From positions 1-20,242 of the IMG/VR virus record IMGVR_UViG_3300037189_010212: a DNA stretch of 20,242 nt. One strand, given 5' to 3'. This stretch comes from a virus. This document shows, piece by piece, positions 1-20,242 of this stretch; the stretch's first letter is position 1; each line of letters begins with the position of its first letter. The position numbers and the translations under genes were made by a program. The notes below the pieces were generated by a model. It had not been told where the DNA came from, made no database searches, and saw nothing but the letters and a program-made list of their open reading frames with translations.

Positions 1-474
1 CAATTAAAGTATCTTTTAACACCACAATTTAATACGAATACAAAATATACATTCTCATTAAATAATCCAATTTATAGACCAACTTCAACACAAAATGCTT
101 CTATTTCTTTATCAACATCAGGATTTAAAATAGCAGGAAGCACAGATACATATTATATCGAAGACAATGCAATCGGTAATTTAAGATTATTTTATCTTAC
201 TGCTGCAAACGTTAAAATTTACACACCATCATATATTGGTACAGTAAATTATGCAACTGGTAAAATATCAATTGATAGCATCAATATAACACAAGGTGAC
301 ACTAATGGTAAAATAACTTTTAGAATAGAGCCTGCTTCTTATGACGTAATATCTGTTAGAAATCAATTAGCATTTATAAGAGAACAAGATATAGAAGTAA
401 ATATTATATCTGATAAAATTGCTTCTGGTGAAAGTGTATCAGGAAAAGATTTTATATTCACAAACAGTAGATAA
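1..474 (+). CDS. 6: Baseplate wedge protein gp6, C-terminal part (5' end outside window)
   Basis: The frame is open from base 1 and stops at TAA 472-474, giving the last 157 residues of a protein whose start lies upstream. T4 gp6 is a baseplate wedge subunit that joins neighbouring wedges around the hub. The visible part is beta-rich and follows the C-terminal pattern I associate with gp6 of marine T4-like phages: FSLNNPI near residue 19 of the fragment, a GNLRLFYL strand near residue 59, GTVNYATGKISIDSINI around residue 80, and SVRNQL near residue 118, ending in FTNSR. The position directly before a gp7-position gene and gp8 matches T4 gene order (6-7-8) and supports the call. Only the C-terminal part is seen, so domain completeness cannot be judged. 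The next gene starts 5 nt after the stop. Confidence 0.78.
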   Translation, partial: QLKYLLTPQFNTNTKYTFSLNNPIYRPTSTQNASISLSTSGFKIAGSTDTYYIEDNAIGNLRLFYLTAANVKIYTPSYIGTVNYATGKISIDSINITQGDTNGKITFRIEPASYDVISVRNQLAFIREQDIEVNIISDKIASGESVSGKDFIFTNSR

Positions 475-479
475 AAACT

Positions 480-3116
480 ATGCCAGCTTCAGTAAAAGCA
501 ACAGCATCAATAGTAGTTAATAAACAAGTCCCTGAATTTGTAAGGGATGATAATCAAAAGTTTATTGACTTTCTAAAAGCATACTACGAATGGCTTGAAA
601 ATTTTTACCCACAACAACATTTAGAAGATATAAGAGATATTGATAACACAGTCAATATGTTTGTTGAATATTTTTCAAGAGAAGTGATGCAGAGTATTCC
701 AAGAGAAGTTATATCAGATAAAAGATTCTTAGCGAAACACATTAAAGATTTATACTCTTCAAAAGGAACAGAAGCTTCATATAAGTTTCTTTTTCGCATA
801 TTATTTAATGAAGATGCTGAAGTGTATTTTCCTAAAGTTGACATGCTTCGTGTATCAGATGGTAAATGGAGTGAAAGACAATTAATTCGTGTTATTTCTA
901 CTACAGGTGATGCTCGTAATTTATTAGGACAATTAATTACTCAAACAAGAATATTCCCAAATGGCGATATAGAAAGAGCAACAGCTCGAGTAGAAAATGT
1001 AATTCTTTTTCGTTATTTAACACAAGACATAGCTGAATTAACATTAAGTAAAGATAGTATCATAGGAACATTTAAGCAAACAAATGATATTCAAACATAC
1101 ACTATTACTGGAACATCTTTTGTTGATAACACTTCAATAGTTTGTACTGTATTACCAATCATTCAACAATTTTCAATTATCAATAATCAAGGTGGAACTT
1201 ATAGTAATATTGGAGACATAATTTATTTTTCTTCACCAACAGGAGTTCTTGCTCGTTCAGAAGTAGGAGCAGTTTCTCCTGGATCTGTTTCTGAATTAAT
1301 TGTAGCAGCAGGTGGTACTGGTTATCAAATAGGTGATGTAATTAGTTTTAATAATACAGGAACTGGTGGACCAGAATTATCACCAACATTAACTGCAACT
1401 GGATTTGTTTCAGAAGTCGATAGAGATTCTTTTTTATTAGAAAATAATTCAGGAAAATTACTTTCAGAAGAATTAGGAGATATTGATATTGAGTCTTCAA
1501 ATTCGGGTGCAATTAAGAGAGCAACTTTACTTTCGGGTGGTGCTTTCTACAGCAAACTTCCTATTTGTTCTTTACCAACTGGATCTGGAAGAGCAAATGG
1601 TAAAATATTAGCAGCATCAAACAGTATTGGTAGAATCACAAACATTGTGACTTCTGAGAGTGGATTTGATTACATAAACCCTCCTTATTTTTTTGTACCT
1701 CTTTCAGTAGTTATTAAAAATCCATCAGGAAGTTTTCTAACAGGTGAAACTATTACAAGCTTACCACAATCAATTCGTTTAGAAAGAAATACTGACGATA
1801 ATTTAATCTTAGAAAATGGTGATAAATTTTTAGATGAGAAACAACAAGTTGCTCAAGCTATATTGGAAAAAATAGATAATGATACACATTTAATTAAATT
1901 AAAAGAAGGAACATCTTTTAGTGGATTTTTAAAAGAAGATGAGAGTGGTTATGTATTAGATGAAGATGCTGATATATTTGTAAAAGAAGAATCAGGACAA
2001 TTCCAGCATAATATGAGAATTAAAGGTTTAACTTCTAATACAACTGCAACTATTTGTTCTATATCAAATCCAAATATTCAAGTAAGAGTAAATGCAGTCA
2101 CTTCTCAAGTTGGTGGATTTAGTTCTTCAGATGGACAAATATCAGAAAGTTCTAAACGTATTCAAGACTCTCTTTATTATCAAGATTTTTCATATGTTGT
2201 AAAAGTAGGACAAAGTATTAATCTATATCGTGATGCTGTAAAAAAACTATTACATCCTATTGGTCTGGCTTTATTTGGAGAAGTTAAAATTAAAAACAGT
2301 ATATCCACTCCAATTATTCTTCGAAGAGAAATATTAAACTATCAAATTCGTCAATTAATAGACATGAAAATGAAAGCTGTTGGTAATGCTCGTACAGCTG
2401 GTGAGATGTTTGCTAGTTTAAGTAAGAATCAGGTAGTTTTAAGTATAACAGACTTTGTAGTTTCGGCACTAAATATAAGTGTATTAACTTCAGAATTCTT
2501 ACCAACATTAAACTTTCCAAATCTTACACCACAAGAAGTGTATTTGTTGGATTTAAGGGCAGCAGTTATAGGGTTCGAACAAGCGAAACAGCTTGAAATT
2601 AATCTTGCTAAATTATTAACAAAAGCAACTGCACTGGTTAGAAATCCAGTCACTTTACTTAATAAATCAACTCCTGCTTTCGATGGAAGTGCAAGAAGAT
2701 ATGGTATAAATTTAGTTGATCTTGAAAGATATAAATTTACTCATAAACCAAGTGTTGCAGGTACTAAATTTGCAAACAGTGATGGAACTCCTGCATATAC
2801 AACAGGTACATATGGATTAGTAAATACTTACCCAAATCCAAACTTCAATTATTGGAATTATGGTAATACTCAAATTAAAGATTTTACTAACATAACTGTA
2901 GGAGAAATACTAAATAACCCTTATAGGCAAGTTAATTTTGCAATTGAATCAGAGATTGGTATTATCAGGCTTCCAGCATCAGCTTTAAGATTCTCGACAG
3001 ACGATGCTCGATTTACGTTTGATGATACATTTACTATGGATGCAGACAGTGTAGAAATGGATGCATCTATTTACAAATGGGATAATAACAATTTATTATT
3101 CGACTTATACACATAA
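480..3116 (+). CDS. Baseplate wedge/structural protein in the gp7 position (878 aa)
   Basis: This 878-residue protein lies between gp6 and gp8, where T4 has gene 7 (1,032 aa wedge protein). I recognise it as the large structural protein found there in marine T4-like phages, not by clear similarity to T4 gp7 itself. The N-terminus carries the typical FIDFLKAYYEWLE helix (about residues 28-40) followed by a helical region. Residues about 230-380 contain glycine-rich beta repeats (GGTYSNIGD, GGTGYQIGD at 278, GGAFYSKLP at 353) like those inserted in gp8. Around residues 560-603 is a conserved block, RIQDSLYYQDFSYVVKVGQS followed by a HPIGLALFG element. The C-terminus is rich in Asn, Tyr and Asp. 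There is no good Shine-Dalgarno sequence before ATG 480, which follows the gp6 stop by 5 nt, so translational coupling is likely. It probably acts in the baseplate periphery; equivalence to gp7 is inferred from position. Confidence 0.75.
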   Translation: MPASVKATASIVVNKQVPEFVRDDNQKFIDFLKAYYEWLENFYPQQHLEDIRDIDNTVNMFVEYFSREVMQSIPREVISDKRFLAKHIKDLYSSKGTEASYKFLFRILFNEDAEVYFPKVDMLRVSDGKWSERQLIRVISTTGDARNLLGQLITQTRIFPNGDIERATARVENVILFRYLTQDIAELTLSKDSIIGTFKQTNDIQTYTITGTSFVDNTSIVCTVLPIIQQFSIINNQGGTYSNIGDIIYFSSPTGVLARSEVGAVSPGSVSELIVAAGGTGYQIGDVISFNNTGTGGPELSPTLTATGFVSEVDRDSFLLENNSGKLLSEELGDIDIESSNSGAIKRATLLSGGAFYSKLPICSLPTGSGRANGKILAASNSIGRITNIVTSESGFDYINPPYFFVPLSVVIKNPSGSFLTGETITSLPQSIRLERNTDDNLILENGDKFLDEKQQVAQAILEKIDNDTHLIKLKEGTSFSGFLKEDESGYVLDEDADIFVKEESGQFQHNMRIKGLTSNTTATICSISNPNIQVRVNAVTSQVGGFSSSDGQISESSKRIQDSLYYQDFSYVVKVGQSINLYRDAVKKLLHPIGLALFGEVKIKNSISTPIILRREILNYQIRQLIDMKMKAVGNARTAGEMFASLSKNQVVLSITDFVVSALNISVLTSEFLPTLNFPNLTPQEVYLLDLRAAVIGFEQAKQLEINLAKLLTKATALVRNPVTLLNKSTPAFDGSARRYGINLVDLERYKFTHKPSVAGTKFANSDGTPAYTTGTYGLVNTYPNPNFNYWNYGNTQIKDFTNITVGEILNNPYRQVNFAIESEIGIIRLPASALRFSTDDARFTFDDTFTMDADSVEMDASIYKWDNNNLLFDLYT

Positions 3117-3121
3117 ACATT

Positions 3122-3126: not shown

Positions 3127-3135
3127 AAAATAACC

Positions 3136-4551
3136 ATGGCAGCAATTATTTCAAACAAATTCCGCATTCATAATGCGCAATCATTTTTAGAGGGATTCGA
3201 TGAAGCATCCCCAACATCAATATATCTTGGTATAGGTCGTCCACAAAGTTGGACTGATGATAACTTACCAGATACACCAACAGATACAGTCGGCGACGAA
3301 TTATATTACTGGGATGATATGATCGCTTTAAAGCGAGTACAAGCATCTGATGTAATATTAGCAATCCCAAGAAGAGATTGGACATCAGGAAATTATTATG
3401 ACATTTATCGTCATGATTATAATGGTACGACTGCTGGAGTAAATATAACTTCAGGTGGTGCAACTACTCCTGCTACTTTATTTAATGCAAACTTTTTCGT
3501 GATTACAGATGAATATAACGTTTACAAAGTTATAGATAATAGAAATACAGCTGGTACTGTTGTTGCTTCTGTAAATAAACCAACTGGAACAGGAACTGCT
3601 ATATTTTCTACAGCTGATGGTTATGCTTGGAAATATATGTTTACAGTATCTCCTGCTAATGTTTTAAAATTCGTTTCTACCGATTTTATCCCAGTTAAAC
3701 GTCTTATTTCTAATCCTGGAACAACTGATGCGTATTACAATCAATATCTAGTCGAACAAGCTGCAGTCGATGGACGTATTGATAATATAGTTCGTGTGAA
3801 TGCAGGATCTGGTTATTCAAGTACTCCAACTGTGGCAATCACAGGTGATGGAACTGGTGCTACAGCAACTGCTGTACGTGATGCTGGTACAAACACAATT
3901 ACACGAGTAGATATTACTTCAGGTGGTTCAGGATACACTTATGCCACTGTGACATTTTCAGGTGGTGGTGGAGCGAATGCTTCTGCAACTGCAATCATTT
4001 CACCAAAAGGTGGACATGGTTCTGATGCTATAAAAGAATTAGGTGGATTCTATGTAATGATGAACGTAAGATTAGAATACAATGATGGATCAGGCGACTT
4101 CCCAGTTGATAATGATTATCGTCGTATTACATTAATACGTGATCCTTACAATTTCGGTTCAACAACACCTGCAACTCTTTCAACAAGAACAGCATCTAAA
4201 TCAATCGCTTATTCTGCATTAGCTGGCACATTATTAAATGACCGACTAATCATAGGTGGTACATCAGGTGCTAAAGGAAGAATTACTAGCATTGATACAG
4301 CGAATACAACTATTAGATATATTCAAACACGTACAGACAATCCAACTGGTGTAGCATTTCAAGCTGCTGAAACAGTGACGATGTATGCTACTGATAATAC
4401 TACACCAACTGCTGTGACATTTACTTCTGGCTCTTTAACAAATCCAGAAATACAGCCAGATAGTGGTGATGTAATCTATGTTGAAAATCGTAGACCAATC
4501 AATCGTGCTATCGATCAAATCGAAGATATTAAAATTATCGTAGAAATGTAG
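3136..4551 (+). CDS. 8: Baseplate wedge protein gp8
   Basis: This is the gp8 wedge subunit, a structural protein that sits with gp7 and gp10 in the T4 baseplate. The N-terminal third carries features I recognise from gp8 of marine T4-like phages: FRIHNAQSF at residues 9-17, then a YLGIGRPQSWTDDN strand-loop, DDMIALKRVQASDV, RRDWTSG, FVITDEYNVYKVIDN, and WKYMFTVSPANVLKFV followed by FIPV. The protein has 471 residues against 334 in T4. The extra length comes mainly from two tandem glycine-rich GSGY repeats (residues 216-295) and a GGTSGAKGRITSID module (about 374-388). The end (ENRRPINRAIDQIEDIKIIVEM) is typical. A good ribosome site precedes it. The following DUF4815 gene starts 39 nt downstream, the largest gap in the window. 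Confidence 0.92.
   Translation: MAAIISNKFRIHNAQSFLEGFDEASPTSIYLGIGRPQSWTDDNLPDTPTDTVGDELYYWDDMIALKRVQASDVILAIPRRDWTSGNYYDIYRHDYNGTTAGVNITSGGATTPATLFNANFFVITDEYNVYKVIDNRNTAGTVVASVNKPTGTGTAIFSTADGYAWKYMFTVSPANVLKFVSTDFIPVKRLISNPGTTDAYYNQYLVEQAAVDGRIDNIVRVNAGSGYSSTPTVAITGDGTGATATAVRDAGTNTITRVDITSGGSGYTYATVTFSGGGGANASATAIISPKGGHGSDAIKELGGFYVMMNVRLEYNDGSGDFPVDNDYRRITLIRDPYNFGSTTPATLSTRTASKSIAYSALAGTLLNDRLIIGGTSGAKGRITSIDTANTTIRYIQTRTDNPTGVAFQAAETVTMYATDNTTPTAVTFTSGSLTNPEIQPDSGDVIYVENRRPINRAIDQIEDIKIIVEM
3781..4020 (+). repeat. Tandem glycine-rich GSGY beta repeats within gp8
   Basis: Two 40-codon units lie back to back (residues 216-255 and 256-295). They align as AGSGYSSTPTVAITGDGTGA against GGSGYTYATVTFSGGGGANA, each followed by an alternating Ala-Thr strand. 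They insert into the wedge protein and explain much of its excess length over T4 gp8. Related GGTGY elements occur in the preceding 878-residue protein. Confidence 0.7.
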
Positions 4552-4565: not shown

Positions 4566-4590
4566 TTTCTTAACAACTATATAAAGAAGC

Positions 4591-7500
4591 ATGAGTATAA
4601 ATTTTAACGTCACTCCATATTTTGATGACTTTAATGAGTCAAAACAATTCCTTCGTGTATTGTTTCGTCCAGGATATGCAGTACAAGCACGTGAATTAAC
4701 TCAACTTCAAACAATCCTTCAAAATCAAATTAGTCGTTTTGGAAACCATGTCTTTAAAAACGGATCAATGGTTGTTCCAGGAGAAGTCAATTTTGATAAT
4801 CAAGTACATTTTGCAAAACTAGAAGATCTATTTGGCAATACAAATGTCACTTCTTATCTAACTCAATTCAGAGATAAAATAATCACAGGTCAAACATCAG
4901 GTGTTAAAGCTGTTGTAATTGATACATCTGAGTGCGGATGTATGGTTCCAGGAGATAGCAATGTTGCTACTCTTTACTTTAAGATGACTGATACTGCTGA
5001 TGATGGTGAAACAAAAAGATTTATTCCAGGAGAAATAATCACTGCAGCTGCAGCTGATAATACAACTGCAAATAATTATAGATTAACAGCGAATCAAGTA
5101 TCTGACATTTCAGTGACTATTAAAACATTCGGTGATACAGGTCAAGCTGCAACTGTTTATACAAATAGCCCAACAACTGATGTATTAGGTTATGGAACAG
5201 TTGTTGAAGTAAAAGAAGGAATATACTACATCGATGGATATTTTGTAAAAAATCCTGAATTACATTTATACGTTGGAAGATTTACAAATACAGTCACTGC
5301 TCGTGTAGGATTTGAAGTAATAGAAGAAGTAATCACACCAGAACAAGATGCTACATTAAATGATAACGCACAAGGTTCGAATAACTTTGCTGCTCCAGGA
5401 GCACATAGATATAAAGTTTCAGTTAATTTAAAAAGACTTACTTTAAACACAACAGATACAATTAAATTTATAGAATTATTACGTTTAAAAGATGGTTCAT
5501 TATTACATAAAGTTGATAAAACTTCTTATGCTGAATTAGAAAAAACTTTTGCTCGAAGAACATTTGATGAATCTGGTTCTTATGAAGTAAATAAATTTAA
5601 TCTTACATCTAGAGAACATTTAAACACTGGCACAAATGGTGGTGTATTTCCTACTGCTCCAGCAACTCCAGTTGCAGGAATTACATATGGAAGCAACGAT
5701 AAAGTAGCAATCGCTGTTGATCCAGGAAAAGCATATATTGAAGGATATGAAGTTGAATCAATTTCAACTAGATTTTTAAGTATAAACAGAGCAAGACCAA
5801 TTAACAATGTCGAAAACGGACACATATCAAGATTAGATGACCAACCTATCGGAACAACTGTAGGAAATCATATATTAGTCAATTCAGTACAAGGACTTCC
5901 ACCAATAAGCACATTTGGAATAATATATCTTTGGGCTGGTATTGATAATCACATTACTCCACCAACAATCGGAACAACAACTAATATAAACAAAACTGGA
6001 TTAATCGGAACTGCTAGAATTAAATCGTTTCAATTACATTCATCTTCTTATTCTTCTCCAACTTTTAAACTTGGTTTATTTGATCTTAAATTAGAGTCAG
6101 GTTATAATTTTGAGAGAGATGTAAAATGGATATCAGATGTTGGTGCAACTAACCCAATTGGATTTTTCGCACAAATAGATCAAACAACAACTCCAGTATC
6201 TTTAATCGGTACAGTATCAGGCACTTCTGGTGCTGCTACACTTACAGGTGTTGGTACTAGATTTCAAGATGAATATAAAATAGGAGATGCTGTAGTTCTT
6301 ACAACATCAAATACATTTGTTGGATTTGTAGATGCAATAGCTTCACCAACTTCATTAACGATTGATAGAAATTTTGCGGTATCTTACACAGGTGTGGTTT
6401 ATGCTCGTGGTTCATCACCAATCTATAATCCTGAATTTCAATCATTAGTATTTAATACAGGAATTGAAAATACAAAAACTTTACGTGGTTTAGATGCAGC
6501 AACTCTTCAAGATACTGTACTTTCTTCTACTCAAACTGTAAGACGTACAATAACTGCAACTTCGACTGCTGGTGGTGATTGGATTCATACATTAACAGAA
6601 GCCACAGAATTTTTCTTAACAGATACAGATTTATCGAATTATACATTATTTGACAATGTAGCAAAAACAGTTGTAAATTTAACTGCTGCAGCAATTTCTT
6701 TTGATAGCGAATCAAATCGTAAAACTATCACAATTACTGGATTAACAGGTTCAAGAAGTTATACACTTTTAACAAGCATATTTCAAAATGGTGTAAGTGC
6801 TAGAGAAAAAATTAAAACAAAAACTTCATATACACAAACTATCACAACTGCGTTAGCTGTGACTGGTAAATCTATTTTATTAGATCATGCTGATGTTTGT
6901 GAAATAGTTTCTGTTTTTATGACTCCAGGAAATTACAATTCATACAGTTCAGCTGGTGCAATTAATATAACTAATAGATTTACATTAGATTCAGGACAAA
7001 GATTATCTCATTATCAAAAAGGTGCATTAGTATTAAAAGATGGTGTAGGAATACCAACTGGTGCTATACAAGTAGTTTATAGATATTTTGCTTATAGTAG
7101 TACAGGAAACTATTTCAGTGTTGATAGTTATTCATCTATACCTTATGAAGATATACCAGAATTTAAAATAACAAATCCTGATGGTACAACAACTACAATT
7201 CCATTACATGATGTTATTGATTATCGTCCAGTAATTTCTGGTGCAAATACATTCACACCAAATATACCAAAGATTGGTACAGATTTCAATACAAGTATTG
7301 CAAATTATCTACCACGTTGGGATAAACTAATTTTAGACAGTGTTGGTAATTTTTCTATTCTTACAGGAGTACCAGCATTCGAACCAAAACAACCAGAAGA
7401 TCCAAAAGAAGGATTAATTTTAGGAACAGTTTTCTTACCAGCTTACACTAAACGAGCATCAGATGTACAAATATTTAAACGTGATAATCGTAGATACACA

Positions 7501-10500
7501 ATGCGTGATATTGGTTTCCTTGAAAGACGTCTTTCAAATTTAGAATATTACACAAGTTTAAATTTATTAGAAAAAGAAACATCAACATTTAGTATTAAAT
7601 CAGCTACAAGTGGCTTAGATAGATTTAAAAATGGATTCTTAGTAGATCAATTTACAGGTCATGGTATAGGAAACGTTCAACACCCTGATTATCGTATTGC
7701 AGTTGATAGTGCAAAAAGAGAATTAAGACCAATGCACTTTACAGATGCTTTAGATATTATTGAAAACTTAGATTCTGGTCCGCAAAGAGCAAGTAGAGAT
7801 TATCAGAGAACAAATGACTTAATTACATTACCATATACTGAATCATCATTTATTTTTAATCCAAATGCTTCAAGAACTATTGATGTAAATCCTTATAAGA
7901 TTGGTGCATTTAAAGGTGAGATTGAATTAACACCTGAAGGAGACTTTTGGAAAGAAACTGATAGAAGACCAGATTTAAATGTAAATGACGATAATGGTTA
8001 TGATGCTATAAGATTCTTAGGTGAACAAATTGGTGTCACTGGCACAAACTGGAATGAGTGGTCTTATAACTGGACTGGTTCAACAGATCAAGTAAGACAA
8101 TTTGAAACTTGGAATGCAGGTTTTGAAGAAACAATTACAACTCAAACAGGGACTCAGTCACGTGAAGGAATTCAAACATCATTATCAGGAAGTGTAAATC
8201 AAATAAATTATGGCGATCGTGTTGTAGATATTTCTTATATACCTTTTATTCGTCCAAGAACTGTATCAATTATTGCTAGAAACTTAAAACCAGATACTAA
8301 GTTTTATGGATTCTTTGATGGTATAAGAGTAGATTCTTCTTATGTTAAACCAGCAGATGTATTCCGTTTGACAAAAGTTGGTGGTGCTGCTGATTTAAAC
8401 TTTAATGTTCAACAAACTATTCAAACAGTTCTTTCAGATGATTTAGCAAGAACAGATTCTCAAGGTGTATTTCAACCAGCATTTTATTTTGGTGATATAC
8501 TAAAAAATTCAGTACATACACCAGTTGTAATTCAAACAGTTAATCATATAACTAATGCTCTTGGAGAATCATCATTTACATTAACTGTATCATCTGCAAC
8601 AGGAATAAATCCAGGACATCATGTTCATTTATATAATTTTAATGCTGTAAGAGCAAACCCTCAAGTCGTTTCAACTATAATTGAAAATAATTTTACTTCA
8701 ACTATTACTACTTTTGGAAGTAATCATTCAAAACAATTAAATTTAAGAATATTTAAAGTTATAGCAGTAGCTGGAACAACAATAACATTAGCAAACATTA
8801 ATGGTTCATTAATTGAACCATTTGATTCTTACTCAACTACAGCATATCCAGCAGGAGATGGTGCTAGATTACAAAGATTACAAGCAAGTGGTATTGCTAA
8901 TTTCGAAGGACCACAAACATCAGCAACTGTTCGTAATATTTCAATAATTAATATTAAAAATGGATTTGCTATTGGTGATGTATTAACTGGAGAAGTTGAT
9001 ATAGGATCTGGTGCTAAGAATCGTGTGACAATAACTTCAATTAATGGTGGAACTGATTCTTCAATCGCACCTACAATGAAAGCTATTGGTGATTCAATTC
9101 GTACCGATTCTAATGGTTCAGTTTGTTGTGTGTTTAATATACCAGCAGATAGATTTAGAACTGGAGAAAGAACATTTAAATTAATTGATAATATTTCAAA
9201 TAACGATCAAGATTTTGATTCAAAAGGATCTTCTTCTTATATTGCATCTGGGACAACTTTAAGTAAAGAAAGAACTATTGTAAATTCTAGAGATGTAAGA
9301 TATGTACAAGATAGAGTTTTCGAAGAAATACCATCAAGACGTACTACTACAACTACTCGTCTTCTTTACACAATACAAAGAGGACATGATCCTGTAGCAC
9401 AAACGTTTATAGTTTCATCAAAAGGTGGTGCTTTCGTTTCTTCAGTAGATTTATATTTTGAAGAAGCAGGAGCAAGACCTATTATTGTTGAATTAAGAGT
9501 GACTAATAATGGTGTACCATCTTCACGTGTAGTTCCATTTACAACTGTGACTAAATCTCCTTCTGAGATTAATGTATCAGCAAATGGTTTAGCTGCAACT
9601 AACTTTAAATTTTTAGCACCTGTATATTTACAAGATAATGAAACTTATGCTATCGTAGTAAGAACTGACGAGCCAGGAGCAAAAATATTTATTTCTGAAT
9701 TAGGAGAAGAGGATTTAATTACCACAAACATCATTACTCAACAACCATTAACTGGATCTTTATATCTATCACAAAATTCACAAGAATATAAAATTAATCC
9801 TTTATTGGATATGAAATTTAAATTATACTCTTGTACATTTGATACAAGTGTTGTTGCTGATGTTGAATTAAAAGCTAATCCACCAATTACATTTACATTA
9901 GATGAAAATCCTTTTGAATTTACTCCATCAACACCACATGTGAGAGTGAAAGCTAGAAATCATGGATTTAATTTTAATGATGTTGCAATTATATCAGGTG
10001 TCGCTCCAGGACTTTATGGTGCAGCTTCACCAAATGGCGCACCGCACACATTATTAAATGGATCTCATTTTGTATTAGCTGAAGGATTAACTAAAGATTC
10101 TTTCATGATACAATTACAAACTACTGATGCAAATGCTGTAAATTTATTAACAGGAACAACTGCTAACTTTGTAAAATCAAACGTTGGTGGAACAAATGTT
10201 TTATGTTCTCGCCAATTAAACGTAGATGCTATTTATTTAAAAACTAACGATTTAATCTTTACAGATACAAGTATAAACTATTTTGTTTCTGCTTCAGATG
10301 CTGCTGGTACACCTACTGATTTCTTACCAATGGTTGCAAATGAAAATTATTATTTCACAAGTAGAAAAGTAATTAAATCTTATGAGAACCAAGTATTACT
10401 TTCAACTTCTCCTCTATTAAAGAGACCAAGTTTAAAAATACGTGCTCAATTAAGATCAACTAATCCAAATATATCACCTGTGATTGATTTACAAAAATCA

Positions 10501-12009: not shown

Positions 12010-12012
12010 ACA

Positions 12013-12222
12013 ATGGCAAAACAAGCAGTTGTAAATACTGTATCTCAGGCGAATACGTTCGATCAATGGCGTGTTCAAACGAATGAAGTAATTACAAAAA
12101 CTAATAACCAAGAAGATTATATTGGTGATTTAGCATTACTCGATAATGCTCAACCAGATTTAGTTGCTGGTATTAATGAAGCACGTGGATTTTCTTTGGC
12201 TATAACAATCGCACTAGGATAA
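12013..12222 (+). CDS. Mini tail-fibre-like protein (69 aa)
   Basis: A 69-residue protein with a good ribosome site. The N-terminal segment ANTFDQWRVQTNEVI (about residues 13-27) is a motif I associate with the N-termini of tail-fibre and structural proteins in marine T4-like phages. The middle, DLVAGINEAR (about residues 49-58), resembles the LVxAINE spacer common in phage tail fibres. The C-terminus SLAITIALG closely matches that of the separate 76-residue protein encoded at 14512-14742 (SMAMSIALGG). It appears to be a stand-alone chain made only of fibre connector elements, so an adaptor or cap on a baseplate appendage is plausible. The short length is unlikely to reflect truncation, because the start, ribosome site, stop and spacing to both neighbours are intact. 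Confidence 0.72.
   Translation: MAKQAVVNTVSQANTFDQWRVQTNEVITKTNNQEDYIGDLALLDNAQPDLVAGINEARGFSLAITIALG
12216..12219 (+). promoter_or_regulatory. Ribosome binding site of the 107-aa gene
   Basis: AGGA lies 7 nt before ATG 12227 and overlaps the final codons of the preceding gene, which stops 4 nt before this start. Confidence 0.55.
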
Positions 12223-12226
12223 TAGA

Positions 12227-12550
12227 ATGGCAAATGTATTTACAAATGGTCTTGCAAGAGACGTAGGAACTTCCCCTGCAACTATATACACAACACCTGC
12301 GAGTAAAAAAAGTATCGTAATTGAATTAGATGTATGCAATAAAATAAATGCAGCTATTCAAGTTGATGCTTATATAACTTCATCAGGGTCAGATTTTTAT
12401 CTTGTTAAGAATGCACCAGTTCCAGCAGGTGGAACTTTGCAGCTTATATCAGGACAAAAAATAGTATTAAAAGCAAACGAAGTTTTAAAAGTAGTTTCAA
12501 ACACAGCTACATCAGTTGATGTTGTGGCAAGTGTTTTAGAAGACGTATAA
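12227..12550 (+). CDS. Small beta-sandwich virion protein (107 aa)
   Basis: A 107-residue protein with alternating hydrophobic strands throughout. GTSPATIYTTPASKKSIVIE (about residues 14-33) is followed by NAAIQVDAYIT, then YLVKNAPVPAGGTLQLISGQ, KIVLKANEVLKVVS and a closing SVDVVASVLE strand. This layout (VGTS...YT.P, IxVDxYIT, VPAGGxLxLxxGQKIVL) recurs in small structural proteins of many tailed phages and suggests an immunoglobulin-like or jelly-roll beta-sandwich. The exact virion location is unknown; its place in a fibre cassette suggests a tail or fibre-attachment protein. There is no signal peptide. The start follows the previous stop by 4 nt and has its own ribosome site. Confidence 0.78.
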   Translation: MANVFTNGLARDVGTSPATIYTTPASKKSIVIELDVCNKINAAIQVDAYITSSGSDFYLVKNAPVPAGGTLQLISGQKIVLKANEVLKVVSNTATSVDVVASVLEDV

Positions 12551-12571
12551 TAAACTAAGAAAAAATAAAAA

Positions 12572-14488
12572 ATGGCTTATATTGGTTCATCAACAGTATC
12601 ACCACTCTCAACTCAAATTCGTCCAAGAGATGAATTCGTTGGAAATGGTACACAGAGAGAATATGTTCTTTCACAGGAAATTCCTGGAGGGTTTGAAAGT
12701 AATGTTCTTGCTTTTGTTGATAATGTTCCTCAAGAACCAATTAGTGCTTACACTATTAAAGATATTCAAAGATTGACTCTTTCGAGTGCTAGCTCAAATA
12801 GTATTAAGAATGTCACAATTGCAAAACCAACTGGAAGCACATTCACAGGGGTTGTAGATTATGCATTATCTGGAAACGTATATCAATCAGTTAATGCATT
12901 ATTAAATGGAACTGGTATATTTTCAGGAAGATCTGGAAACACATTTAGATTAGAACAACGTTTAGTTTCAAATAATAATTTAATTGCTTCTGTCACTTTA
13001 AATAAAACAGATTCACTAACTCAACCAAATCCTTTTGTTGGTATAACTGTATCTGGTACATTTTTAAATAATCAAATAACTGAGTATGTAATAATTTATG
13101 ATGTCACTGCAAATAATTACTTAGCTATAACACCAACTGGATTAACTGCAAGAGCAAACACTTCAGCAATAATATCAGACGATAAGTATTTTACAGTATT
13201 TTCACATTCTACTGAAATAGAAGCACCTAAAATTTCAGACAAAATAACACAAGCTGGTTCTAATGCGACTGGAATAGTTGCAGCTGCCACATCAAGTTAT
13301 ATAGATGTGATTCAAACGTCTACTCAAAATTTTGTCACAGTAGCAAATGGTGGACAAACTATTTCTTATGTAGAACCATTATCTGTAAATTATTTAAATG
13401 ACACAATTACATATGAAAACGTTGTAGCTGGAACATTTTCTATAACTGCATCTTCAACTTTTAAATTCAAAGCATTACAATTTACAGGTTATCCAAAAGC
13501 AGGACAAAAAATTATAATTAACCACATGGGTGGAAGTAATTATCAAATAAACCCAACAGCTGGAAGTGTCACAGATTTGGCTTTATCGGATAATTTAAAA
13601 ACTTTCACAGTTGATAAATTTACAGCTACGCAAGGTCAACAAACATTTGTACTGTCAAAAGTACCTGTAAGTGTTCAAAGTATTTTAGTGACTTTGAATG
13701 GAGTAGTACAAACTGATACAACAGGATATACTCTATCAAATGGAAACGAATTAGTGACTCAATCAGCATTAAATGCTGGTGTAAATGTAAATGTACTTCA
13801 TTTAGGGTTTAGCACAGTTTCAAGAAATTCTTTTACAGATGGTTCTATAACTGCATCTGCTCTTCAAGATTTAACAATAACTGGAACTAAAATAGCTAAT
13901 ACAACAATTACAAGTTCTAAACTTGCTGCTGGTGTAGCGATTGCAAATATTGGATATACTCCGCACAACCCATTAGCAAATACTACTCAGTCATATGCTG
14001 CTGCAGTGACTTTTAATGGTGCAATTAATGCAAATGCAAATATAGTATTTCCTGGAACTGCAGTTCCAAGTGTAGACGCAAATACACTTGATGAATATAA
14101 AGAGGGTGATTTTTCACCCACACTTGTTCCAGCAACGATTGGTGGAACACCTATATCGCTTTCAACAGCAGCAGGAAAATTTATTAAAATTGGAAGATTA
14201 GTTCGTGTAAGTATTCGTATGGTAGTGTCTTCGTTAGGAGCAGGAAATTCTGGTTCTATTAAGATTGGTGGCTTACCATATACTATAAATAATAGTGGTA
14301 ATGTAATAGATGAATATTCAACTATTTTAACTACAAATACGACTAGTATGACAAATCCATATGTTAATACAATAGCAAATACATTAACGTTGCAAATTAC
14401 TACTGATGGTTCAACTGCTGCAACAGTTGCAAATTTAACAGGTACAAGTACGTTATTAATTAATTTAACGTATATAGCAAACGTATAA
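12572..14488 (+). CDS. Tail fibre protein (638 aa)
   Basis: A modular tail fibre, probably involved in host recognition. The N-terminal module (residues about 18-60: RDEFVGNGTQREYVLSQE, NVLAFVDNVPQEPISAYTI) is a common marine fibre module with a FxGNGxQ strand and a V(D/N)NVPQEP turn. A second copy occurs at residues 348-415 (DKFTATQGQQTFVLSKVPV, ILVTLNGVVQ, TGYTL), separated from the first by about 285 residues of beta-rich sequence. Next is a Gly/Ser/Thr/Ile shaft connector (TDGSITASALQDLTITGTKI...SSKL). The end, from LDEYKEGDFSPTL at residue 506, is the common C-terminal beta domain of phage fibres (LDxYxEGxxxPT, then GKFIKIGRLVRVSIRM), probably a trimeric tip. Only a weak purine-rich leader precedes ATG 12572; the start is chosen because the N-terminal module begins just after it. 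Confidence 0.85.
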   Translation: MAYIGSSTVSPLSTQIRPRDEFVGNGTQREYVLSQEIPGGFESNVLAFVDNVPQEPISAYTIKDIQRLTLSSASSNSIKNVTIAKPTGSTFTGVVDYALSGNVYQSVNALLNGTGIFSGRSGNTFRLEQRLVSNNNLIASVTLNKTDSLTQPNPFVGITVSGTFLNNQITEYVIIYDVTANNYLAITPTGLTARANTSAIISDDKYFTVFSHSTEIEAPKISDKITQAGSNATGIVAAATSSYIDVIQTSTQNFVTVANGGQTISYVEPLSVNYLNDTITYENVVAGTFSITASSTFKFKALQFTGYPKAGQKIIINHMGGSNYQINPTAGSVTDLALSDNLKTFTVDKFTATQGQQTFVLSKVPVSVQSILVTLNGVVQTDTTGYTLSNGNELVTQSALNAGVNVNVLHLGFSTVSRNSFTDGSITASALQDLTITGTKIANTTITSSKLAAGVAIANIGYTPHNPLANTTQSYAAAVTFNGAINANANIVFPGTAVPSVDANTLDEYKEGDFSPTLVPATIGGTPISLSTAAGKFIKIGRLVRVSIRMVVSSLGAGNSGSIKIGGLPYTINNSGNVIDEYSTILTTNTTSMTNPYVNTIANTLTLQITTDGSTAATVANLTGTSTLLINLTYIANV

Positions 14489-14500
14489 AAATACTAAATA

Positions 14501-14505
14501 AGGGA
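14501..14505 (+). promoter_or_regulatory. Ribosome binding site of the 76-aa gene
   Basis: AGGGA lies 6 nt before ATG 14512, in the 23-nt gap after the tail fibre stop. Confidence 0.6.
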
Positions 14506-14511
14506 AGTAAA

Positions 14512-14742
14512 ATGCCTATTAGCAAAATTCTTTCGAACTCGATTCAAGACGACCTTAAATTAAAAGGTAAAGGAACAGGCTTAGTAGCAGATACAAGCAC
14601 TAATCGTTCGAATGCTCCAACTATTGGAGATATGAGATTCAATACAACTTTGGGCAAATACGAACTTTATAATGGAGCAAAATGGCAAACTGTTGATCCG
14701 AGTGAAATTTCAATGGCAATGTCAATCGCTCTTGGTGGATAA
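14512..14742 (+). CDS. Mini fibre-tip-like protein (76 aa)
   Basis: A 76-residue protein with a clear ribosome site. The centre, GDMRFNTTLGKYELYNGAKW (residues 44-63), is a recurrent element near the ends of phage tail fibres (RFNTTTGxxExYNGxxW), here as a free-standing chain. The N-terminus (ISKILSNSIQDDLKLKGKGT) is unremarkable. The C-terminus SMAMSIALGG resembles that of the 69-residue protein encoded at 12013-12222. It directly follows the 638-residue fibre, so it may be an accessory fibre subunit or cap. It is not a remnant of that gene, since the upstream stop, the gap and the ribosome site are all intact. Confidence 0.75.
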   Translation: MPISKILSNSIQDDLKLKGKGTGLVADTSTNRSNAPTIGDMRFNTTLGKYELYNGAKWQTVDPSEISMAMSIALGG

Positions 14743-14759
14743 CCAACCATTTTTATATT

Positions 14760-15413
14760 ATGAGATTTAAATCGAGTGATGAGTGGGATTGGGAAATAGT
14801 TTTTAGTAATCGTAGAGACAATTTAGTTCTTCAAAAAGCAACAGGTTTTAAAGATAAAGAAGGATGGATTGGTATTCCAAACGTAGAACTGTGTACTCTT
14901 ACAGTTTTAAAAGAAGGATTAGTTTCAATTCGTGATTGGGACACAAAACAAGATTTAGGGGTAATGGGACCAAACTTTAGATTCCATTATTCTAATATTA
15001 TGAAAGGGTATGGTGATCGAAAAGATTATTTCGGTAATTCACTCCCTTCAGATGAAGAAATACTCAAAACAGCGAGTAAAAAACACGTAAGATTAAAGAC
15101 TGTATCTGAAAAAAGCACATTTTATTGTGTTTCAGATCCACTTGATAAAATAATTTGGGATGGATATTCAAATATATTGAATAATTCGCCTGAAATTTTT
15201 AAAATAAACAAAAATACATCTTTTTATAGGTTTATCTCACTAGATGATAATATAAATATAGATGGTAGAACAATTGAAAAATATCGTCCGATTGGTTTAG
15301 ATGTTTATGATAAAGATATAACCTTTACTGGAAAAGGTATGTATTTAATCACAGCACCTATTGGTATATACAATAAGAGTGATAATTTAAACCCACGATA
15401 TGTTAATAATTAA
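14760..15413 (+). CDS. Unrecognised protein in fibre cassette (217 aa)
   Basis: I do not recognise this 217-residue protein. It begins MRFKSSDEWDWEIVFSNRRD, has many aromatic residues and short alternating strands, and no signal peptide, membrane segment or low-complexity run. The second half contains STFYCVSDPLDKIIWDG (about residues 120-136), FYRFISLDDNINIDGRTI and a closing GKGMYLITAPIGIY strand (about 192-205), an alternating beta pattern loosely reminiscent of cupin or jelly-roll folds; that comparison is weak. It lacks the Thr/Ser/Gly richness of its fibre neighbours and could be an enzyme, an assembly factor or a virion protein. There is no Shine-Dalgarno sequence before ATG 14760, which lies 17 nt after the preceding stop; no alternative start upstream is available in the gap. 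Confidence 0.7.
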   Translation: MRFKSSDEWDWEIVFSNRRDNLVLQKATGFKDKEGWIGIPNVELCTLTVLKEGLVSIRDWDTKQDLGVMGPNFRFHYSNIMKGYGDRKDYFGNSLPSDEEILKTASKKHVRLKTVSEKSTFYCVSDPLDKIIWDGYSNILNNSPEIFKINKNTSFYRFISLDDNINIDGRTIEKYRPIGLDVYDKDITFTGKGMYLITAPIGIYNKSDNLNPRYVNN

Positions 15414-15420
15414 ATCCTAA

Positions 15421-15424: not shown

Positions 15425-15432
15425 AACAAGCA

Positions 15433-18400
15433 ATGGCAAAAAAACTCTTCTTAGCATCTGATATTGATGTAGCTCAAAATGCAGTATTTTTAGATGGCAA
15501 TATACCAATCGAAAGACTTCTATTAATCACAAACGTCACTGCTGGTGCAGGTAAAATTATTTACAATTTTGCTGATAGCACTTTAGGTGCTACTTCTTGT
15601 GTATACGATCCAGCACTTGATCAAACTAGATTAATTCTTGCTGTAAATTTTGGAACAACATCTCCTCAAATCACAGCTAATTCTAAATTACAAATTTTCA
15701 TAGAAGAAGAATTCGCTAGAACAGGCTTCGAAGAAGCCATGCTCGATCCAGTTAATAAACTTCGTATTTCACAACCAGAAAACTTAATCGACACTGACTT
15801 TGAATATGGTTCTCAATCAACAAAATGGGAAACACTTCAAACAGTTTTAAACATTCCTACAATTTACTCATCTTCAGGAGATTTAACTCTTGAAGGATTA
15901 ACTTCAATTAATACTACAGCAAATTCAAAACAAGTAAGATGTATATTTACACTTCCACACGGACAAGTAATAGGAAATGCTATTCAAGTCACAGGTGTTA
16001 GCAATATTACGTGTGAAGGAGCATTCCTAGTCACAGGTGTTGTAAGTACTACAGAATTTTTCTACGAAATAGATCAAGCTGCAGTTGCTACAGAAAACGT
16101 TGCTGGTTCATACTCTTCAGTTGTTCCTGCTAAGTTTTTTGAAGGATCAAATTTAATTTTAAATTTAAATGCAGTAGATTCATCAGACAATCCGATTTCT
16201 CCAATTCAAACAAATGGAGCATCTCCGTCAACTTTAACTATAAACACACTAGAACCTCATGGTCTTAAAATTGGAACAAAATTATATTTAAGACAAACAA
16301 TTGGTCCTAAAGAATTAACAATTACAGATCCAACATTAACTGCCCCTGATGGTCGTCCTTTTATAGATTCATCTCCAACTATTACTGTTGTGAATACTAT
16401 AGATGGAACTGCATCTACTGGTTCAGCAGATCTTCAATATGATCGTCCAGTTGTCACTTGGGATTGGCAAACTACTTACGGAAAATATTTACAAACTTCA
16501 GACATTAATGCAGCTGCAGATGAAATCACATGGAACTCTCATGGATTAACTGCAAATGCAGCATTACTTTTCAACGATCCTGTTCGTGGCGATGATACAA
16601 CAGCTACAACAAATGGTGGAATGACAGATGGAACAGTTTATTATGCTTCTATTGTAGATGCTAATACAATTAAATTAGCTACTGATTATGGTACACTTGC
16701 GAGTTTTGTAAATCTTACAGCAATATCTACAACAAGAGGATTTCCAAGACTTGGATTAGTTTATAAAGTTGAAAGTAAACAAGACAGCCAAAGATTTACT
16801 GCTTTCTTTACAAGAAACGTGACTACAGGTGCTACAGGAAACTTTGATGTAGGTTATATCAATAACACAAACACAAATTCATTTACATGGAACGTACAAA
16901 GTATAATGGGAGCAACTCGTGTTCCAACTAGAGGAATAATTAATGAATTATATTTCGAAGGTGCAAACGTTGCAGGAAGTCCAATTAACATTTCTTTTTT
17001 AGGAAAAAATTATTTAAATCTTGGTGCTGGTAATATTAGTTATTCTCTTGCTGCTAAAGGTTCAGGTGGTGGAAGCGAATTTCCAAACTTAGATATTACA
17101 AATACTTTTTATGTAAGCAGTGGTAGTTATTTTATAGATGTTGAATATCAATTTGGTGCGATTAACAGAGATAAATTTGGTAATCCTACTTCAAATTATC
17201 GTGTTATCTTTTATATAATAATAGACCATGTACCAACATCTTTAAACACATCACACTCTGGTGCAGATTTTGCTGGAGCTACTTTTGGTAAAGGTGCACG
17301 TTCAGGAAGTAGAATTATAGGATTCCAAGGTCGAGTACCAAACGGATCTTCTACAAATGGTTCATTAGATGGTTTTACAAACCAAGCAAATACAAGAAAT
17401 AATGGAAGATATGGAACTGGAAACCCTCCATATAATTTTCAAGTGACTGGTACAACTACACTTGGTGGAATGACTATTAATTATCCAGAAGCAGGTACTG
17501 CAGCTTATGGTACAACATCTGAAATATATTTTGGTTTTGCCGATGATTTAACTGCATTAAAAAATACATTTTATGCTCCAGCTCATGGAATTACAAATAA
17601 TGAAACTTGTACACTTGCAATTACTGGTGCTGGCTATTCTACAACAAATAGATTTGCATTTGTAAATTCATCATCAACAGTTGTTCCTTATACTGTTTCA
17701 GAATTTGCTGTGACAGCGAACGTTGTAAACTCAAATTACTTAAGATTTACATCTAGAACTACACCATTTACAAATGATATAGCTTCTTTCCCAGCAGCAT
17801 TTACGATTACAAATAATAAAACTAATGTACTTTATAACACAATTTATATTCAAAACCACAAAATATCAGGACAAACAACTGCAACTTATTCGACTCCAGG
17901 AACTGTAATTGGTGGTTTAACAAGTGGTACAAACTACTCTCTTCAATTTGTAAACGATTCTCGTTTAATTATTAAAACTGCAAATACTTCTGGTTCTGGT
18001 ACTGCTACAACTTCTGCTTTCGGAAGCACATCTACTAGTTTAAACCAAGCATTTACTGTAAATCTTGAAACACCATTAGGATCAGTACCGACACAATGTA
18101 CTGTGACACAGATACAACATAGAGGAAAATTATCAACTTCAGCTCGTTTTTTAAGAACAAAATTTGCTGATAATATAGTTTATAACATTGGTGCAGTAAA
18201 TGGACAAGATTCAAGTATTTTTCAAAATGAACCAACATGGGTTCCAAAAGATATTTCATCATTCTTAACTGGTTCTCCAGTTGGTGTGAGTGTGACTGTT
18301 TCTCCAACATCAGGTGTAAATGCTGCTGTTCCAGGAATGTCAAACTGGTGGGAACTTAAACTTGTTGTTTCAGCTTCAGTAGGAACAATTCTTCTTACTT

Positions 18401-20242
18401 CTTCAGGTTCTGGAGTACAAACTTTTAACGTATTTTCTCAAGATGGTGCTTATGATGGTATCTATACAATACAATCTGTACCAACATCTACATCAATCGT
18501 AGTACCTGCTACATTTAAAATTCCAGCGAGATCATATTCTTTTGATTCTCGTTCTGATGCGAATAGTGGAGCTGTTAATGCTACAGTTGACACAATCACT
18601 TTAGGAACAGTATCAAATCCTTATAATCCTACAAACTTCTATCCTGGACAATTAGTTTCTTATGTTCCAGGAGCTGGAAACACTGACATAGTTAATGCAG
18701 CTAGTGTAGATAACAATTATCTTTATGCTGTCCCTGTTTCTGAAATTGCTATTTCTTTAGCAAACTCTTATGTTTCAGCAATTGCGGGAACTATAATGCA
18801 ATTAACACCAACAGGTTCTACACAAACTCAGAAGATCACAACAACAAACGTTTTGAAAACGACTAAGCAAACAGGATCAGTGAGTGGAACATCAGGTGCA
18901 AGAACAATAACTGGTACTGGTACACGATTCTTAAGTAAATTTAAACGATTTGATACAATTTATATTTACATTGGAACTTCTTTGAAAGAATTTTCTATTG
19001 ATCGTGTTGTTTCTGATACTGAAATGTCAATAGATCCATTACTTCCAGCATTTACTTCTACATTTACAACTGCAACTTATGCTACAATTACTTCTGTGAA
19101 TTTACGTCCAGATGGTTTTTCTTTACATAAATCATTCGACGGAGGTATCGATATAACAGCAGGAACTTCACCAAATAGCAAGATTGTTCGTCAATCTCGT
19201 AAATACTTTAGATATCAATCTGGTAAAGGTATACAAAACTCATTTGCGATTAACTTTTCGCCTTTGAAAACTTTACAAAAACTTGAGTATGTAAATCTTG
19301 GTACTGGTGGTGCTACAATAAATGCTGTAAGAGCAACTTGTCAAGAACCACACAACTTAGTTGCTGGAAATAGTGTTATAATAGAAAAAGCTCTTGTGAC
19401 AACTGGAAACAACGTTTATAACGGAACATTCTCTGTAAATTCAGTAATAGATATAAACACATTTACATATCTTATTGGTGCTATTCCGCAACAACAAAAT
19501 GCTGCAGGATTCCCAGAATATGGTAGAAATAGTTGGTCACAATCAGCTATTCGTGCAGGTATGTTTGATGATGCAAATGGTTTCTTCTTTGAATATGATG
19601 GACAAAAACTATATGCTGTAAGAAGATCTTCTACACTTCAGTTGTCAGGATTTGTTAGTGCAACTAAAAACTCTCAAGTAATAAATGGAACAAACACTGC
19701 ATTCTCAACACAAACTATTGTTGGAGATTATATACAAATACGAGGTCAAGTATATCGTGTTATCTCAATTGACTCTGATTCTCGTTTGGTGGTTCAACCT
19801 CCTTATCGTGGAATTACAGCTGCTGGAATTAAAGCAACACTTCGTGAAGATGTTCGTGTAGAACAAGCTAATTGGAACATTGATCCATGTGATGGAACTG
19901 GTCCGAATGGATATGTTTTAGATATTCATAAAATTCAAATGTGTTATGCTGACTATTCTTGGTATGGTGCTGGTAAAATTCGTTTTGGTACAAAAGACGC
20001 CAAAGGACATATTCATTATCACCATGAATTTGTACACAACAACAAATTAAATGAATCATATTTACGTTCAGGAAACTTACCTGCAAGATATGAAATTGAA
20101 AATGGAGATTCTCCAACTTCAGCTCCAACATTATTCCACTTTGGTACATCTGTTATTATGGATGGTACGTTTGATGATGACGATGCTTACTTATTTACAG
20201 CTCAGTCAAAACCTTTCGTGTTCGCAGTTGGATTAACTCAAA
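15433..20242 (+). CDS. Giant modular virion structural protein, 3' end outside window (at least 1,603 aa)
   Basis: From ATG 15433 the frame runs without a stop to the last base: 1,603 codons plus one base. The start has a good ribosome site and gives MAKKLFLASDIDVAQNAVFL. The protein is Thr/Ser/Asn/Gly rich and beta-rich. An N-terminal region (residues about 90-130: EEEFARTGFEEAML, VNKLRISQPENLIDTDFEYG) resembles large structural proteins of marine T4-like phages, as do GMFDDANGFFFEYDGQ (about residue 1376), the YADYSWYGAGKIRFG block (about 1504) and LRSGNLPARYEIE (about 1542). Repeated modules include four His-Gly/Asn-Leu/Ile elements (H276, H370, H718, H1307) and two GT/GD beta modules (1147-1220 and 1404-1473). 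A histidine cluster (HIHYHHEFVH) lies at 1526-1535. It is probably an outer baseplate or tail appendage protein; function is inferred from context and pattern only. Confidence 0.85.
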   Translation, partial: MAKKLFLASDIDVAQNAVFLDGNIPIERLLLITNVTAGAGKIIYNFADSTLGATSCVYDPALDQTRLILAVNFGTTSPQITANSKLQIFIEEEFARTGFEEAMLDPVNKLRISQPENLIDTDFEYGSQSTKWETLQTVLNIPTIYSSSGDLTLEGLTSINTTANSKQVRCIFTLPHGQVIGNAIQVTGVSNITCEGAFLVTGVVSTTEFFYEIDQAAVATENVAGSYSSVVPAKFFEGSNLILNLNAVDSSDNPISPIQTNGASPSTLTINTLEPHGLKIGTKLYLRQTIGPKELTITDPTLTAPDGRPFIDSSPTITVVNTIDGTASTGSADLQYDRPVVTWDWQTTYGKYLQTSDINAAADEITWNSHGLTANAALLFNDPVRGDDTTATTNGGMTDGTVYYASIVDANTIKLATDYGTLASFVNLTAISTTRGFPRLGLVYKVESKQDSQRFTAFFTRNVTTGATGNFDVGYINNTNTNSFTWNVQSIMGATRVPTRGIINELYFEGANVAGSPINISFLGKNYLNLGAGNISYSLAAKGSGGGSEFPNLDITNTFYVSSGSYFIDVEYQFGAINRDKFGNPTSNYRVIFYIIIDHVPTSLNTSHSGADFAGATFGKGARSGSRIIGFQGRVPNGSSTNGSLDGFTNQANTRNNGRYGTGNPPYNFQVTGTTTLGGMTINYPEAGTAAYGTTSEIYFGFADDLTALKNTFYAPAHGITNNETCTLAITGAGYSTTNRFAFVNSSSTVVPYTVSEFAVTANVVNSNYLRFTSRTTPFTNDIASFPAAFTITNNKTNVLYNTIYIQNHKISGQTTATYSTPGTVIGGLTSGTNYSLQFVNDSRLIIKTANTSGSGTATTSAFGSTSTSLNQAFTVNLETPLGSVPTQCTVTQIQHRGKLSTSARFLRTKFADNIVYNIGAVNGQDSSIFQNEPTWVPKDISSFLTGSPVGVSVTVSPTSGVNAAVPGMSNWWELKLVVSASVGTILLTSSGSGVQTFNVFSQDGAYDGIYTIQSVPTSTSIVVPATFKIPARSYSFDSRSDANSGAVNATVDTITLGTVSNPYNPTNFYPGQLVSYVPGAGNTDIVNAASVDNNYLYAVPVSEIAISLANSYVSAIAGTIMQLTPTGSTQTQKITTTNVLKTTKQTGSVSGTSGARTITGTGTRFLSKFKRFDTIYIYIGTSLKEFSIDRVVSDTEMSIDPLLPAFTSTFTTATYATITSVNLRPDGFSLHKSFDGGIDITAGTSPNSKIVRQSRKYFRYQSGKGIQNSFAINFSPLKTLQKLEYVNLGTGGATINAVRATCQEPHNLVAGNSVIIEKALVTTGNNVYNGTFSVNSVIDINTFTYLIGAIPQQQNAAGFPEYGRNSWSQSAIRAGMFDDANGFFFEYDGQKLYAVRRSSTLQLSGFVSATKNSQVINGTNTAFSTQTIVGDYIQIRGQVYRVISIDSDSRLVVQPPYRGITAAGIKATLREDVRVEQANWNIDPCDGTGPNGYVLDIHKIQMCYADYSWYGAGKIRFGTKDAKGHIHYHHEFVHNNKLNESYLRSGNLPARYEIENGDSPTSAPTLFHFGTSVIMDGTFDDDDAYLFTAQSKPFVFAVGLTQ
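18871..19092 (+). repeat. GT/GD beta module, copy D (in second giant protein)
   Basis: Residues 1147-1220: TGSVSGTSGARTITGTGTRF, then KRFDTIYIYI, VVSDTEMSID and a closing ATYATIT strand. The opening VSGTSGAxTxTGxGTRF is nearly identical to copy A at 6208-6411 in the other giant gene. Confidence 0.65.
19642..19851 (+). repeat. GT/GD beta module, copy E (in second giant protein)
   Basis: Residues 1404-1473: LSGFVSATKNSQVINGTNTA, FSTQTIVGDYIQIRGQVYRV, ISIDSDSRLVVQPPYRG. It is the most canonical copy, with an intact GTNTxF...VGDxIxI...V.SIDSDSxL order. Confidence 0.65.
20008..20037 (+). other. Histidine cluster in second giant protein
   Basis: Ten codons encode HIHYHHEFVH (residues 1526-1535), with histidines at 1526, 1528, 1530, 1531 and 1535. 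HxH pairs bind metal at the tips of T4 fibre proteins gp37 and gp12. Whether this cluster binds metal is unknown; the HEFVHNN part may instead be an ordinary conserved piece of this structural domain. Confidence 0.4.

Follow-up and report, generated by a model that had tools for sequence, protein, structure and literature searches.

We analysed a stretch of phage DNA of 20,242 nucleotides (IMG/VR virus record IMGVR_UViG_3300037189_010212, positions 1 to 20,242; hereafter the window), from which the palindromic pentamer GTWAC (GTTAC or GTAAC) is completely missing. The source record consists of the window only. Its genes, all on the plus strand, begin with the 3' end of a baseplate wedge gene (1..474; PHROG 219, E 1e-18; itself GTWAC-free), followed by an 878-amino-acid baseplate wedge or neck-type structural protein (480..3116; PHROG 17744 and others), a baseplate wedge subunit of 471 amino acids (3136..4551; PHROG 438, E 5.9e-133), an open reading frame (ORF) of 2399 amino acids in the tail cluster (4591..11790; orthologue G001_180), six ORFs of 71, 69, 107, 638, 76 and 217 amino acids (11794..15413), the first of which belongs to the virion structural family PHROG 473, and a large tail-cluster ORF of 1603 amino acids with an open 3' end (15433..20241); the 2399- and 1603-amino-acid frames are ORF calls and were included in the codon statistics. 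In PHROG the predicted proteins matched baseplate wedge and virion structural families of T4-like phages, and as far as these matches tell, the window comprises T4-like tail genes of an aquatic phage. The closest isolates to the 878-amino-acid protein were Pelagibacter and Methylophilales phages (~30% amino acid identity over ~65% of its length). The 471-amino-acid baseplate wedge subunit served as the marker for fetching relatives and building trees.

In a direct word count of the window neither GTTAC (0) nor GTAAC (0) occurred, and the GTWAC-free domain thus spans the whole record (1..20242, unstranded). A maximal-order Markov model predicted 31.3 copies, giving a Poisson probability P(0|31.3) of 2.6e-14, and among all 5-mers of the window GTAAC had the lowest z-score. 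When codons of the window genes were shuffled with the protein and the per-gene codon usage preserved, 43.0 copies were expected (range 33-52, n = 100), and a stricter shuffle, which also held the codon-boundary dinucleotide, still gave 34.4 (22-45). The word is therefore strongly under-represented against both composition- and codon-preserving controls (0 versus 31-43), which rules out chance or base composition as the cause. The GTSAC form of the same palindrome was retained in 40 copies (GTCAC 18, GTGAC 22), and near-neighbour words were present as well (GTAC 72, GTAAT 41, GTTAT 29, GTTTAC 2, GTATAC 2). A first-pass annotation made from the letters alone had reported the total absence, some 30 expected copies, some 40 copies of GTSAC and the presence of these neighbours, and each of these statements agrees with the counts; the codon-shuffle expectation (34-43), which by its own criterion would have refuted the claim had it been near zero, lies far from that.

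Because the record is the window alone, the rest of the genome could be followed only in its nearest long relative, G001 (the record of locus L003, also L081-L088; 144,834 bp), with which the window aligns end to end (G001 118137-138380) at 94.0% nucleotide identity. The G001 protein that matches the isolates' annotated major capsid protein shares ~64-66% amino acid identity with Methylophilales and Pelagibacter T4-like phages. GTWAC is missing from G001 throughout, with 0 copies against 171.8 in the Markov model and averages of 158 and 207 from the two kinds of codon shuffle (20 each), so that in this proxy the remainder of the genome does not return to a normal frequency. A regulatory or packaging signal kept out of the rest of the genome, which had also been considered at first, is disfavoured because at least one copy would be needed and 144.8 kb of G001 hold none.

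The codons next to potential sites show where the word is avoided. Valine codons that precede a codon starting with AC are GTC (83) or GTG (76) in G001 and never GTT (0) or GTA (0), i.e., GTW in 0 of 159, whereas elsewhere in the same genome 87% of valine codons are GTW and 13% GTS. Following NGT, asparagine is encoded by AAT 137 times and by AAC not once (0; AAC makes up 22% elsewhere), and tyrosine by TAT 108 times with TAC again at 0. The window behaves in the same way: GTW in 0 of 37 valine codons before AC-codons versus 410 of 446 elsewhere, and after NGT 0 of 16 AAC for asparagine and 0 of 16 TAC for tyrosine. Since the asparagine and tyrosine contexts behave alike, protein constraint or a bias in Val-Thr pairs is ruled out. 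A relative with normal GTWAC counts, G003, has 92 GTWAC sites in codons aligned to G001, none of which (0) is retained in G001, although 24.5% of all 5-mers are unchanged between the two ((1-0.245)^92 = 5.9e-12); 32 of these sites changed synonymously and 60 with an amino-acid change. The synonymous shifts in the three contexts, the codon shuffles and the comparison with G003 all bear out the earlier suggestion that selection acts on DNA, with the proteins kept. GTSAC, in turn, is in excess in G001 (200 observed versus 106 in the Markov model or 80-119 in codon shuffles), and in the window 37 of its 40 copies sit in frame as Val(GTS) followed by an AC-codon, so that the excess is mostly a footprint of escape at this position; the agent behind the avoidance must therefore spare GTSAC. 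As a separate observation, G001 carries a tandem pair of tRNA-Val(GAC) and tRNA-Thr(TGT) (L085:19317-19468), which beside its exclusive use of GTC and GTG before AC-codons is maybe a coincidence; the pair was not seen in the relative G002, where one tRNA-Arg was found.

The sites could also have decayed in the absence of selection, if methylation by the host made GTWAC hypermutable (e.g., through 5-methylcytosine to T), and this would likewise yield a methylation-linked and lineage-specific loss. The replacement spectrum between G003 and G001 leads us to reject decay of methylated cytosine, as no single transition dominates: among the 32 synonymous replacements, C-to-T at the last base as the sole change accounts for 2 and G-to-A at the first base alone for 0, whereas 23 exchange the central base (GTWAC to GTSAC), 17 of them by A-to-C or T-to-G transversions. 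GTAAT/ATTAC is found 665 times against 629-631 in codon shuffles, and decay would also have to account for a loss (0 versus 172) that leaves no residual sites; we consider mutational loss hardly credible.

To follow the distribution of the avoidance, relatives were collected with the 471-amino-acid baseplate protein, with a query from the lineage of a distant contig, C79, and with the capsid protein, in each case the best 80 of ~600 matches. Among the best 80 relatives of the baseplate query, 22 were low in GTWAC (observed-to-expected ratio, O/E, below 0.35); related phages with normal GTWAC counts exist. In a tree of 69 rows, from which 12 of the 80 loci had been left out (partial, near copies or distant, picked by hand and including the low locus L067), the low rows fell into one well-supported group of 28 rows together with the normal L015 and L016/17/19 and the partial L009 and L010. 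C79 itself is a T4-like contig with 47% amino acid identity that was placed in a metagenome-assembled genome (MAG) titled Sphingobacteriales (MAG G022), and it has 0 GTWAC versus 181 expected in 120,000 of its 121,087 bp; a scan of genome contigs yielded four phage contigs, all of them distant (37-43% identity). Only loci of 9 kb or more entered the counts of C79 kin and of capsid relatives, and one word count of nuclease homologues. On this basis 15 of the 70 loci counted among the best 80 kin of C79 were low in GTWAC, and normal kin (L209, L213), 87-88% identical to the same query, stand alongside them; of the best 80 capsid-protein relatives fetched, 36 were long enough to be counted and 1 was low. 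A second tree of 64 rows, made up of 22 of the 69 rows, 41 of the 80 C79-lineage loci and C79 (low labels set at O/E below 0.35 for rows from the first tree and below 0.2 for new rows), needs 8 changes of the avoidance label, 7 of them forced by well-supported branches. GTWAC avoidance is therefore lineage-specific, has been gained and lost repeatedly, and recurs independently in a distant T4-like lineage.

Some genomes are intermediate. G010 has 15 GTWAC versus 88 expected, 14 of the 15 sites being one base away from the G001 sequence and 10 of the 15 differing only as GTWAC against GTSAC; G009, the record of L007, has GTWAC sites at the same spacing. Because of this shared spacing, and because the 69-row tree places L007 inside a set of avoiders, the sites are read as returned, and both genomes, like L009/L010, appear to be partly recovered ones that regained sites after a loss. 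G002 (131 kb) has 8 GTWAC versus 150 expected. All 8 sites lie within 91-117 kb (41.7 expected there), with 0 versus 109 expected elsewhere (L089-L095), and this tract was perhaps imported by recombination.

GTWAC is not the only missing word. G001 is without GGCC (0/25, observed/expected), CCGG (0/10) and ACSGT (0/20) and almost without GTTAAC (1/31) and GTATAC (2/28), G002 is without ACGT (0/135), CGCG (0/22) and GGCC (0/57), and C79 has GATC at 1/358, GTAC at 1/272 and GGWCC at 0/87. The avoided words of G001 are mainly palindromes: among 4-6-mers with an expectation of at least 10, an O/E below 0.1 was found for 6 of the 83 that are palindromes but for 3 of the 2202 that are not. In the first 40 kb of each of three isolates, ACGT is at 0/55 in Mosig, TCGA at 0/39 in HTVC008M and GATC at 3/152 in Melnitz. 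The set of avoided palindromes differs in each lineage. For individual 6-mers the Markov expectation is not always reliable, and codon shuffles of the other palindromes cover only GTTAAC, GTATAC and GTAC; the claim for GTWAC rests for this reason on the codon controls. G001 is also almost without GGTACC, GGATCC and CTATAG, C79 (120,000 bp) without CCGG, ACSGT and GTGCAC, and missing words of their own were seen in other loci (CATG 1/31 in L153, GATC 0/102 in L077, AGCT 0/30 in L247 and 0/32 in L251, TCGA 0/15 in L260).

This predominance of palindromes also bears on avoidance at the level of RNA, i.e., a host or phage RNase toxin that cuts GUWAC in mRNA. With a coding density of ~96-99%, a motif avoided in mRNA would become rare in almost the whole genome, lineage specificity would suit a toxin as well, and strand counts cannot separate RNA from DNA for a word that, like GTWAC, reads the same on both strands. 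However, an RNase site needs no palindrome, whereas the other purged words are mostly palindromes, as enzymes acting on double-stranded DNA predict, and we regard a toxin as very unlikely.

Enzymes of the phages themselves were considered as well. A search limited to three DNA methyltransferase families found PF01555 in 0 of 18, PF00145 in 0 of 15 and PF02086 in 0 of 15 relative records, many of which are fragments; of the 14 control genomes, 12, 10 and 7, respectively, were positive. In Melnitz and Mosig a gene annotated as DNA methylase lies next to that for DNA polymerase (L203:4010-5227, L204:1-232); in G001 none of the families searched was found. As to nucleases, a phage-made enzyme specific for GTWAC might degrade host or competitor DNA while the phage's own genome is kept free of the site, and the earlier annotation had named such a nuclease among its options. 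The one candidate family followed is that of G001 gene 65 (367 amino acids, L083:10299-11402), whose product, with a conserved FE...D...SLK pattern, looked by eye like a PD-(D/E)xK nuclease. It is found in the avoiders G001 and G002, with no BLAST match in G003-G006 (G003 and G004 being partial), and homologues lie on the low contigs L143 (68% identical; 0 versus 16.8) and L156 (distant, 6 kb; 2 versus 9.0). But of the 20 further loci that carry the family (L143-L162), 17 are not low in GTWAC, L157 being half-reduced (9 versus 17.3), and the only low ones are L143, L156 and L162 (= G002). The avoider C79 lacks a credible homologue (one stop-containing match, E 0.03), and BLAST found no gene that G001, G002 and C79 have in common and that the normal G003-G006 lack. 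The protein has no Pfam match at E 0.01, and a Foldseek search with its model (mean predicted local distance difference test score, pLDDT, 78) gave no match at E <=0.001, the weak matches being to Holliday resolvases only. With the sole candidate family also present in phages of normal GTWAC content, and thus not tracking avoidance, we rejected the 367-amino-acid protein as the agent and consider self-avoidance quite unlikely. Members of the family occur in many contigs of aquatic phages, FE, D, SLK and QFRGTT being invariant among them (alignment A2), and at the place matching the gene G004 and G006 have proteins without detectable similarity to it.

We therefore favour, with a probability of roughly 0.77, escape from a Type II restriction enzyme of the hosts, or of non-hosts that are often entered, which cuts GTWAC but spares GTSAC. 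It is the best-supported cause because palindromes make up most of the avoided words, the set varies by lineage, and avoidance was repeatedly gained and lost. Such an enzyme would cut unmodified GTWAC and not GTSAC, and each site would be a liability for a phage that has no methylation of its own, as may be the case here because the three methyltransferase families were not found in the relatives. Purifying selection would then strip every GTWAC, synonymously where the protein is conserved, with Val-Thr pairs shifting from GTA or GTT to GTC or GTG, and asparagine and tyrosine after NGT being encoded by AAT and TAT; once the pressure has gone, sites might return, mostly from GTSAC back to GTWAC. 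What we infer is that such an enzyme exists, that it is of Type II and resides in a host, and that sites return in this direction; the link to the host has this status because a GTWAC enzyme or GTWAC methylation of a host was not found. Escape from a host enzyme, which the first-pass annotation had put forward as the simplest explanation, is thus partly supported, since its host component was not recovered.

Several results weigh against restriction escape. No cognate enzyme, methyltransferase or host was found in the genomes screened, in which TGTTAC, a proxy word containing GTWAC, was counted in 247 + 248 genomes of two orders. In the order to which a Pelagibacter MAG belongs (247 genomes), no genome was clearly poor in TGTTAC relative to the reversed control (by eye, lowest ~0.6). 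In that of MAG G022 (248 genomes) some were TGTTAC-poor, yet six of the lowest, read in part (8-65 kb each), had GTWAC near the Markov expectation in five cases and 6 versus 11.6 in the sixth. Seven other contigs of MAG G022, the bin with C79, have normal GTWAC (138 versus 137 expected), which neither supports nor excludes this MAG as the host of C79. In the first 40 kb of Melnitz, Mosig and HTVC008M, the closest isolates with known hosts, GTWAC is not avoided, and the non-palindromic words GAGGC, ACCAGG and ACCTGG are also nearly absent from G001, the pair ACCAGG/ACCTGG being at zero and ACCAGG low in several relatives. CCTGGA is over-represented in all six of G001-G006 and ACCAGG strongly under-represented in G001-G005, a non-palindromic bias that is likely codon-related. 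G001 has genes for a beta-ketoacyl synthase and a class-III aminotransferase (L085:6493-7734, L084:15847-17070), candidate auxiliary metabolic genes that could aid host finding.

Two other kinds of agent would act on DNA. A non-orthodox defence of hosts or non-hosts with GTWAC specificity (BREX-like, Dnd/Ssp phosphorothioation or exclusion by mobile elements) would be expected to leave the same signature, but as avoidance is nearly confined to orthodox Type II sites according to Rusinov et al. (2018; PMC6286503), we think it improbable. Alternatively, the agent might be a mobile or phage-borne targeting system among aquatic bacteria (a competitor phage, a satellite or a non-methylation defence), which would fit the avoidance of many palindromes by phages whose hosts seem to have few restriction-modification (R-M) systems; this we regard as unlikely. 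If such an agent were real, phage genomes would record conflict between phages or between elements and phages.

Under restriction escape, the absence of GTWAC predicts a restriction specificity, for GTWAC and not GTSAC, in uncultured aquatic bacteria. Since even related phages differ in the avoidance through gain and loss, the trait could serve as a marker for a switch of host or of defence, and the matching of missing words to host methylation motifs could help to assign hosts to metagenomic phages.

Avoidance of restriction sites is a known phenomenon; the GTWAC motif has no named enzyme in the literature searched, and what is unusual is the completeness over a large expected count together with the repeated turnover between related phages. 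The open-licence literature searched, with supplements and REBASE outside the search, gave no GTWAC R-M site, in keeping with the earlier remark that no characterised system of this exact site was known; the word turns up in 2 papers, which to judge by their titles and abstracts do not deal with R-M, and it is not present in the main text of two metaepigenome papers. Tsp45I recognises GTSAC, the complementary half of the palindrome, and was rejected as the agent. MaeIII recognises GTNAC (PMC10113651), and both enzymes share the GTnAC frame and a palindromic 5-bp Type II site with GTWAC; MaeIII is excluded because it would also drive out GTSAC, whereas the four GTNAC words are not depleted together and GTSAC is enriched here (200 versus 106 or 80-119 in G001). 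According to PMC6286503, orthodox Type II sites are avoided, more so by non-temperate phages, sites of Types I and IIG are not, those of Type III very rarely, and complete or almost complete elimination of a site occurs in about one tenth of viral genomes. The GTWAC case resembles these in the complete or near-complete loss of palindromic words; unlike them, where host species and enzyme specificities are known, GTWAC has neither an assigned enzyme nor a known host, and the expectation that was erased is large (172 in G001). Pelagiphages cluster by depletion of GANTC (PMC9516812), GANTC being a known host methylation motif, whereas the literature searched gives no such role for GTWAC, and the split in pelagiphages is found chiefly in the Autographivirinae, whereas the GTWAC avoiders are T4-like; in both cases the phages are aquatic, depletion of a word partitions the phage phylogeny, and evasion of a host mark is presumed.

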